Below are positions 46,701 to 49,700 of a stretch of 64,000 nt of DNA, piece by piece. Below the pieces are notes generated by a model. The model saw only the letters and a list, made by a program, of their open reading frames with translations, was not told the origin of the DNA and did no database searches. Positions within the stretch are counted from its first letter, which is position 1, and each line of letters begins with the position of its first letter. Source of the DNA: Owenia fusiformis (lineage: Eukaryota; Annelida; Polychaeta; Sabellida; Oweniidae); NCBI GenBank assembly GCA_903813345.2, contig CAIIXF020000003.1, positions 28,101,248-28,165,247 of the forward strand, written 5' to 3'. The position numbers were made by a program, and so were the translations under genes.

Positions 46701-49700
46701 TTTGCCTTTTGCTAATGAAAACCTTTACAACACTGACACTCGATTAACAAATCACTGATGTAAGTTTTGTTCCTGTTTTCCAGGTGAATATATTTGGCAG
46801 CTTCGAGACAGGGTTATACCTTCCTACCAGGTAAGATATCACATTTATCCCATAAAGTTTGAATAGAAGCATTGTTTGTAACAACTGGTCAATTCACATC
46901 CCGTAATTGCGTTTACTGTTATCACCTGATACTGTTGCAAATTAGTTGAACAGTATATGTGGTCATGTGACTGATCATGTGATACATTATTATACCACAT
47001 TATGCGATATGTAATAAGCTCCTATACCACATTATTTGGTCATGTGATGAATCGTGTGGTACCCCAATTCTGTGGTACTATATTATAAGTAAGCATTTCA
47101 CTGATTTACTCAGTTTTGACCAAATAATGTCAAAATTATTTTCAATTAAAATCAATATTCCTCTAGTGCTAATATTGATTTATTAAAATAGATTTATTTT
47201 CATAAAAACCAAACAATATTTAATTACCCAGACAATCATGTCAATATCAAGAAATTTCAAATTTATGTGTCTGCTTTTGCTAACAATATTTCCCGTTGTC
47301 ATGTTCTGTTTAACAAATGAAAGGTTTCCTGTTTCTGTAATATCAAGGTCAACATAATCAATATCAACCCATAAATGAAAAGTCACTTGTCATTCTTGGC
47401 TGTTCTCTCAATTTGAATTTGTGCCAATATTTTGTATCCAAATACTTAAGATTAGGGAACACTACCTGTTCAGGTGATGTCCCCATTGTCCTATAGGCAG
47501 TTAACGATCTGTGGTTAATTGACTATTTAAGTAATGTTTTATATGTTATGTAATTGTTTTATACATTTTTTTTATTTATATAACCCATGCCACTTTAATA
47601 AAATTTTACAATACAACACAATCTTCTATGAAGTGAACTTGTTGCCTGTTTAGCTTATTCCGTGTTGTTGCATACTTTTTTTCGCTCTATTTTGTATTTT
47701 AAGACGAGACATGATCATCATGACATTTGAGGGTATTGTTGTTTTATAGATTTGATTTGGTTTTGCTTGTGAATTGATTTTGTTCTTTTCTTGTTTAACT
47801 TCCCTTCGGTAAAGTATCATGGAAAAATGTCACCTTGTTCTTTTATTGTTATACTAAGTTTCTATTCCAGTGATATTGACCTCAAATACTTTTTATTTCA
47901 AGTGATATTAACGTAAAAACACTTTGTATTTCTAGTGATATTGACCTCAAATACTTTGTATTTCCAGTGATATTAATGTAAAAACACTTTGTATTTCCAT
48001 TGATATTGACCTCAAATACTTCGTATTTCCAGTGATATTAACCTAAAAACACTTTGTATTTCCAGTGATATTGACCTCAAATACTTTGTATTTCCAGTGA
48101 TATTAACCTAAAAACACTTTGTATTTCCAGTGATATTGACCTCAAATACTTTGTATTTCCAGTGATATTAACCTAAAAACACTTTGTATTTCCAGTGATA
48201 TTGACCTCGTTGTGTTTGGCAAGTGGGACAAGTTGCCACTACGGCCTCTAGAGCGAGAACTCATTAAGAATAAAATCACAGATGAAGACCATATTAAAGT
48301 ATTAGACAAGGCATCCGTAAGTTTTACTTCTCACTCAATTAATACGATGTAGCACAGTTTTAGCTGAAATTCATTGTTTATTTTACAAAGTCTAATCTCC
48401 AAATATTTGGCTTTTGTTTGCATCGTGTGAACCCTACATATGATTAGTTTTGTATTTTACAATATTTATCCATGCATACATAAACTTTTTTTATTTATAC
48501 TCCGATAGTCACATTTTAAGTATGAAGTACTTTTTATATCATTCTATTGTAAAATTAAGAATGTAATTTATCCAATTTTTTGATTGTACATACTTTGTTG
48601 TATTTAGGTCCCAATTGTAAAGCTTACTGATCTTAAAACAGATGTAAAGGTGGACATCAGTTTCAACATGGTAAATGGGGTCAGGAGTGCCAAGCTCATC
48701 AAGGTATGATATATTTTCTTCATATGCTCAAACTATAAAATTTCGACCAGAAGAAATTGTCAAGAGTGTTACAAAGCATATTGGAAGTTAAGCCAAACAT
48801 GTATTTTCTACACATTTATGTTTGGAGCAGTTTCTTAAATTGTTAAATGACAAATAAGTATCCTTTTGACACTGGATATACGAGCTCTGACAATATCGAT
48901 TGACAGATGATTGGCCGGATTAATCCAATTTCATGACCCGGTTTCTGGATTACACAATATAGCTCACACTTAATAGACAGAAATACGATAGAAATAGACC
49001 ATTGACGTTCATGTTGTTTAGCGACAACAATTAAATAATGGTTTTATATAGTCTGGGTCTTCTTGAATATCAAATTAAACGCCAATATCTTTAACAGTAT
49101 TTTAATTTAATCATACATGTACATCTCAATCAATTAACACATGTAATTAGTAAACGCAGCAACCTGTTGTATGTTTTGTTATATTATTTTAATCACCCAT
49201 ACTTGAAATCTTACGGTCCATTCGTATTTTATTCTATTTTTCTCAATTTGTATAATGCCTGATTTAGATCTGTTTCTATATAACCTAGTCTTATTGTTAA
49301 CACTATGACTAGGTACTCTAATTTCATTGGGTTCCTTTATATTCTTATGTTAATTTGATTATTATATTTGACCACATTGGTATTTTTCCTCAGGGAATAA
49401 GCGTGGATATTTACTATTGGTTAGTAGATTGGTTTTACGCCTACTCTTTTTATGAATGTACATAGTATCATCATTTCCATATTTAGTAGTAGTATAGGAA
49501 AAAGTGTGGGAAAATCATGTTTCCCCCAAGGCTCTGTATGTTTGTTTATTCATTAACGAAGTATCTTATGTACTTATAAGTTGATAGACTAACTTCGAAT
49601 TGGCATTTCCTATTATGAGTTTCTATTTTCACATGTACATTCATCAATTTTCTGTATATGAACATTTTCCATCTCATACAGCGATCTCTTAACTATCGAA

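Follow-up and report, generated by a model that had tools for sequence, protein, structure and literature searches.

The window, by which we mean the whole stretch of 64,000 nucleotides from Owenia fusiformis that was analysed, contains an intact gene for a TENT4-type nucleotidyltransferase, an RNA-tailing enzyme, on the forward strand and, at 9129-13673 on the reverse strand, most of the lysyl-tRNA synthetase (KARS) gene, with at least 10 exons. We modelled the TENT4-type gene from protein similarity alone. All 12 exons are intact, the phases are consistent, and the introns are GT-AG throughout; correct splicing is therefore presumably frequent enough for function. The predicted product carries the domains PF22600, PF01909, and PF03828 (nucleotidyltransferase palm plus PAP_assoc), and its best PDB chain is 3nyb (E 2.8e-47), named Poly(A) RNA polymerase protein 2, which we take to be yeast Trf4. 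With a DxD palm, a PAP_assoc domain, and Trf4 as its nearest relative, the gene belongs with TENT4 (Trf4/PAPD5/PAPD7), and the letters of human TENT4A align to most exons, the first exon included. Residues 179 to 181 of the spliced product are DID, in agreement with an earlier sequence-only reading of this DNA, which had placed a catalytic Asp179-Ile-Asp181 in the exon numbered 4 here. The parts of the gene that concern us are as follows (a slash marks a splice junction).

31787-58285, + strand: coding span of the intact TENT4-type gene, 12 exons, 703 aa
46784-46830, + strand: exon 3, the upstream partner, ending ..CCAG/gtaagata; exon 4 enters in phase 2
48196-48316, + strand: exon 4, which encodes catalytic D179-I-D181

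At the 3' end of intron 3, Tandem Repeats Finder reported an array at 47865-48208 with a period of 65, 5.3 copies, 96% matches, and 0 indels. Reading the units directly, we found that 47871-48195 consists of exactly five 65-bp dimers, each made up of an A unit of 32 nt and a B unit of 33 nt, and that each unit combines approximately 19 to 20 nt of intron end with the opening 13 nt of the D179-I-D181 exon. Both the 325-bp set of five dimers and the description of the unit as an acceptor plus the start of the exon had been proposed from the letters, and both are exact; the span proposed for the feature, 47871-48316, does contain it but also takes in the whole exon. Identity at period 65 is 250 of 260 positions, whereas 500 plain shuffles of the intron gave no more than 111. 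Head-to-tail units within the range of approximately 10 to 100 bp, at high identity, make the array a minisatellite, and the direct tandem arrangement of an intron 3' end with an exon start makes it a duplicated intron-exon junction as well.

47865-48208, + strand: whole array, consisting of a 6-nt partial unit, five 65-bp dimers (47871-48195), and 13 nt of exon
47871-47902, + strand: unit A1; its acceptor AG (47869-47870) closes what was likely the intron before the array; TAA after 14 codons
47903-47935, + strand: unit B1, with the weak acceptor AAG
47936-47967, + strand: unit A2, with the acceptor TAG
47968-48000, + strand: unit B2
48001-48032, + strand: unit A3, with AT in place of AG, so that the acceptor is lost
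48033-48065, + strand: unit B3
48066-48097, + strand: unit A4, with a context identical to that of the true acceptor over 43 nt upstream and 13 nt downstream
48098-48130, + strand: unit B4
48131-48162, + strand: unit A5, with a context identical to that of the true acceptor over 108 nt upstream and 13 nt downstream
48163-48195, + strand: unit B5, with an in-frame acceptor (48161-48162) that would insert 11 residues

Unit B5 also holds the branch-like heptamer TATTAAC and the true acceptor AG (48194-48195). Acceptors with an AG before exon 4 number ten in all, namely nine upstream copies and the true site; the sequence-only reading had described the splice site as duplicated tenfold, and the loss of the AG from A3 leaves nine of the ten upstream copies usable. 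The acceptor sequence GTATTTCCAG, which it had given for the repeat, is absent from A1 (TTCTATTCCAG), B1 (TTTATTTCAAG), and A2 (GTATTTCTAG). No difference separates the A5 decoy from the true site over 121 nt (108 upstream and 13 downstream), so only the body of the exon, beyond position +13, or the position of the site can tell them apart.

Every unit carries a branch-point-like heptamer 24 to 25 nt before its AG: TATTGAC in every A unit and TATTAAC in the B units, except for TATTAAT in B2. Because this heptamer is a copy of the exon start, the I-D (or I-N) codons offer a candidate branch point to the AG that follows. A unit thus spans both the end of the intron and 13 nt of the exon, and every copy looks like a 3' splice-site module in its own right. 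The branch score, for which we set the weights after the motif had been seen, is 9.2 to 9.3 for eight of the nine AG decoys and for the true site, and 8.5 for A1. Of 1,122 other intronic AGs, 1.9 to 2.8% reach this level, and the 10 other acceptors of the TENT4 gene all stay below it, the best at 9.0. The AGs are spaced 32 or 33 nt apart (65 nt across the lost A3 AG), so that under scanning from branch site to AG, as described in PMC1431707, each candidate branch would lead to its own AG. A unit resembles the AG exclusion zone of that description in having a branch-like site, an AG-free stretch, and one AG; the exclusion zone, however, reflects a general rule of splicing and is not a repeat family.

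The sequence-only reading had suggested scoring each acceptor with a splice-site model. We did so with a matrix trained on 20 acceptors, taken from TENT4 and from KARS next to it; we set the intron ends from protein alignments, and neither the true site nor the array entered the training. The true site scored 5.1, and the upstream copies scored 1.1 (A1), 0.1 (B1), 3.8 (A2), 6.1 (B2), -1.8 (A3, which lacks the AG), 4.6 (B3), 5.1 (A4), 6.1 (B4), 5.1 (A5), and 6.1 (B5). Five of the nine AG decoys therefore score at least as high as the true site. The expectation that the decoys would be similar in strength holds for the seven that fall between 3.8 and 6.1 and fails for A1 and B1, which are weak. 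Leave-one-out scores of the 20 known sites ranged from -1.0 to 12.9, with nine below the true site, and 42 of 1,154 other TENT4 intronic AGs score as high as the true exon 4 acceptor or higher.

The array contains five decoys that score 5.0 or more, whereas 826 other intronic windows of 325 nt average 0.6 such AGs and reach a maximum of 5. That maximum falls in a second array of the TENT4-type gene, in intron 2 (39914-40786). This is a 162-bp array with ten acceptor-like AGs scoring 5.4 to 11.6, several of which are CAG/GTGAACC-like AG/GT sites that score above the true exon 4 acceptor. It offers up to five acceptor-like AGs per 325 nt, as dense as in the exon 4 array and with scores up to twice as high. 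Good local scores are thus no evidence of use, and we rejected the density of acceptor-like AGs as a sign of function.

Features outside the local acceptor signals differ between exon and array. GC content is 0.42 in the body of exon 4 and 0.28 in the array, and GAR triplets number 5 in the 108 nt of the exon body versus 0 in the 325 nt of the array, a composition that would fit exonic enhancers favouring the exon-proximal site. The RNA of 47840-48316 folds no better than its shuffled versions (z = +0.94; an equal or better fold in 87 of 100), and we therefore rejected RNA structure as a means of hiding the decoys. A known structured RNA was likewise rejected, as 46700-48700 has no Rfam match at the gathering threshold.

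Splicing to A1, A2, A4, or A5 leads to a TAA after 14 codons, as would splicing to A3 if its AG were present, and splicing to B1, B2, B3, or B4 leads to a TAA after 25 codons. The prediction that A-unit acceptors give early stops is therefore correct, but these stops are not confined to A units. The stops brought in by eight of the nine AG decoys lie 140 to 400 nt upstream of the exon 4/5 junction. Nonsense-mediated decay (NMD) usually acts on stops more than 50 to 55 nt before an exon junction; by this rule the predicted stops from these eight decoys are well placed for NMD. The remaining decoy, B5, is open through the exon, with an 11-residue insert exactly as had been claimed for the last B unit. 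A GS-x10-DID spacing is common to the TENT4-type product and two aligned PDB chains, and among the 10 acceptors with an AG, only a start at 48196 gives a full-length product with this spacing.

Dimers 4 and 5 are identical to each other, and dimers 1, 2, and 3 differ from them at four, three, and one positions, respectively, with one substitution common to dimers 1 and 2. The series 4, 3, 1, 0, and 0 upholds the earlier observation that divergence falls towards the exon, and it implies that the exon-proximal dimers are the youngest. When the flanks of the array are joined, they give a normal-looking acceptor, ..TTCTATTCCAG/TGATATTGACCTCGTTGTG, which is likely to be the pre-array state. That the array expanded from the splice site itself, as the sequence-only reading had it, is made plausible by the joined flanks; the resemblance between the unit and the old end of the intron adds little, being only generic. 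Only 14 of 1,149 intronic AG contexts match unit A as well as the old intron end does, and only 9 of 1,149 do so for unit B, but three other true TENT4 acceptors (48608, 53624, and 57794) beat the old intron end against unit A, which points to a generic pyrimidine-tract likeness. We therefore rejected similarity as a basis for deriving the unit from the old intron end, since the likeness is only what pyrimidine-rich ends share.

Three of seven independent substitutions fall in YAG triplets, which make up 6 of 65 positions (P = 0.02, a comparison made post hoc); this is a faint hint of selection against the decoys, which would imply that decoys are used. We also considered a mobile or viral origin and set it aside on searches of little weight. 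An exact-match search of a prokaryotic contig collection with the 29-nt exact A unit found nothing, which says little, and an exact-match search of viral contigs with a mixed A/B pattern found nothing, which also says little, as the pattern fits A units and not 33-nt B units.

Duplicated splice junctions and splice-site VNTRs are known from human genes, and the exon 4 array is a multi-copy, acceptor-side version of this kind; the matches listed in open-licence PMC literature included no multi-copy acceptor array. The CBS variant c.844_845ins68 (intron 7/exon 8) duplicates 52 nt of intron end together with the first 16 nt of the exon and so shares with our array a tandem intron end and exon start with competing, near-identical acceptors. 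According to two reports, which call the sites donors (PMC2630376) and a 3' splice site (PMC7490669), splicing strongly prefers the more distal of the sites, the downstream one, and the mRNA is normal; a duplicated intron-exon junction can therefore be spliced at one site to give normal mRNA. CBS has one extra copy of 68 nt and was tested by RNA, in contrast to ten copies of 32 to 33 nt here, in an array known from sequence alone. Two papers by Romano reportedly concern 3' splice-site choice in CBS, one of them, by its title, G runs as silencers. Because the exon 4 array contains no GG dinucleotide, the CBS outcome may not carry over, and the likeness is one of anatomy rather than of factors.

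The donor side offers further parallels. A 31-bp VNTR of human CBS affects splicing. By its coordinates in PMC2630376, this repeat, c.1444_1467+7(16_21), is a minisatellite of 16 to 21 units across an exon-intron boundary; it differs from our array in lying on the donor side and in being known as polymorphic. In human ABCA7, the intron 18 VNTR is a minisatellite next to an exon, and its 25-bp unit opens with a splice donor (PMC5954066); unlike the exon 4 array, it repeats donors rather than acceptors and is intronic. PMC2812944 describes internal tandem repeats of human segmental duplications as minisatellites at exon-intron boundaries that modify introns, but there novel introns arise via cryptic sites, whereas here an existing acceptor was multiplied.

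From the observed anatomy, coding consequences, and near-identity of the decoys, we infer an account that extends to branch-site use, acceptor choice, NMD, neutrality, and polymorphism. We think it probable that the array is a young, near-neutral splice-site minisatellite at which splicing is mainly exon-proximal and decoy use is noise cleared by NMD. The junction of intron 3 and exon 4 would have been tandemly duplicated into a young minisatellite, in which the duplicated codons for DID, reading TATTGAC or, in most of the B units, TATTAAC, may act as the branch site for the AG 24 to 25 nt further on. The spliceosome would mostly pick 48194-48195, the sole acceptor joined directly to the real exon body, and would use the upstream modules at a low level, giving transcripts with early stops that NMD could remove. 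With little effect on the protein, the array would persist as near-neutral sequence, and it is probably a VNTR. Against this account, the true acceptor, at 5.1, is slightly outscored by three of the B decoys, at 6.1, A5 cannot be told from the true site over 121 nt, and scanning as set out in PMC1431707 favours each module's own AG.

In a rival account, the upstream acceptors would take a sizeable share of splicing, with NMD clearing the resulting mRNAs and array length setting the amount of TENT4-type enzyme in the absence of dedicated regulation. We regard such a leaky drain on dosage as possible, although unlikely. It would draw on the seven of nine AG decoys with scores of 3.8 to 6.1, of which five equal or exceed the 5.1 of the true site, on the eight of nine that bring in a TAA 140 to 400 nt before the exon 4/5 junction, and on array RNA without unusual structure to hide the decoys. 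Leaky decoy use would also be plausible by the precedent of ABCA7, where the VNTR yields an out-of-frame isoform that keeps one unit; however, the same paper reportedly does not attribute the loss of ABCA7 expression to that isoform or to NMD (PMC5954066). The normal mRNA of CBS 844ins68 (PMC2630376) and the intron 2 array, with as many and stronger acceptor-like AGs, also weigh against the drain. The sequence-only reading had named a splicing rheostat or NMD switch, beside neutrality, as a possible role. In one such reading, the minisatellite propagates itself as an evolvable rheostat, copy number tuning the productive fraction of TENT4-type mRNA. The codons for DID would serve at the same time as branch site for the copy that follows, and each duplication would add a full poison acceptor; even so, we consider this rheostat distinctly unlikely. 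Regulation in trans seems to us more doubtful still: factors bound to the modules would tip splicing towards productive or poison acceptors, or detain the intron much as decoy exons do. U2AF bound to so many 3' splice-site modules in tandem could make the array a splicing sponge, and intron detention in OGT needs decoy exons with weak 3' and 5' sites (PMC12017769). The OGT decoy exon also needs its 5' sites, however, and our units offer only a poor GTGATA, which at unit junctions has 4 to 5 of 9 matches to CAG/GTAAGT, versus 5 to 8 of 9 for the gene's 11 donors. The identical youngest copies, moreover, leave little time for regulation to be tuned.

The donor result bears on two further candidates. 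A decoy exon in the sense of PMC12017769 is an internal pseudo-exon with both splice sites, and unit junctions, the place where we looked for a donor, hold no good one, so we rejected this assignment. Intron gain, as defined in PMC2891723, was rejected because the unit junction is AG/TG, without a usable donor. The idea that the in-frame B5 acceptor makes a working second isoform, with 11 residues added beside the active site, has in its favour an open frame through the exon and an acceptor score of 6.1, but we judge it the least credible of the readings considered. The B5 product has either DIN, with the second aspartate lost, at x10 from GS, or the real DID at x21. The insert lowers the Pfam score from 35.6 to 26.8 bits for NTP_transf_2 and from 53.5 to 48.3 bits for MTPAP-like_central, both of which stay above the cut-offs (21 and 27, respectively). 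We would expect an inactive enzyme, and the B5 form is probably at best dead or dominant-negative. We think it very improbable that the array is an assembly artefact or a private allele, rare and confined to one individual. Dimer 5 does repeat dimer 4 exactly and dimer 3 comes close, short-read assembly can miscount near-identical copies, and the array comes from one sequence; however, the distinct substitutions in dimers 1 to 3 and the clean flanks suggest that it is probably real and limit the doubt to copy number.

With ten AG-bearing acceptors in a row before one exon, the array amounts to a natural experiment in competition in cis, and acceptor use in ordinary RNA-seq would gauge the roles of local signals, order, and exon definition in the choice of a 3' splice site. 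It also suggests how a repeat may spread through the splice signal of a conserved gene with the full-length reading frame unbroken, and that coding sequence, once copied, can supply branch sites.

Tandem arrays are common in the window. We counted 27 merged arrays with a period of at least 10, covering 7,947 bp, of which 12 lie in the 27.4 kb of TENT4 and KARS introns; these derive from 36 of 47 Tandem Repeats Finder rows, the other 11 being nested in or repeating those, and one period-4 row was filtered out. One intronic array overlaps a splice site, versus 0.13 expected by random placement (P = 0.12). Two lie within 10 nt of a splice site (P = 0.035) and 3 of 12 within 35 nt (P = 0.028), at distances chosen post hoc. 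In a window so rich in arrays, one on a splice site needs no special cause; a tendency of minisatellites in this genome to be seeded at splice junctions is suggestive only, and further arrays on splice sites should exist in this genome.

Several of the other repeats can be noted individually. A 21-bp minisatellite at 12665-12765 starts within approximately 3 nt of the KARS splice donor at 12768 (the gene is on the - strand) and is the second array to abut a splice site. The third splice-site neighbour, a 15-bp array of the ATTTCACTATCATGT type at 51782-51955, ends approximately 25 nt before the TENT4 exon 7 acceptor (51980). In the last TENT4 intron, 18-bp TCCATTCAGTCCCTGTTG arrays at 57214-57525 lie within long open frames on both strands, yet are intronic. 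At 16885-17034 there is a near-perfect inverted repeat with 64-nt arms, 97% complementary, and a 22-nt loop, and at 23149-26540 head-to-head arrays of one 83/84-bp unit (13.5 copies forward and 26.5 inverted) form a 3.4-kb palindrome-like satellite.
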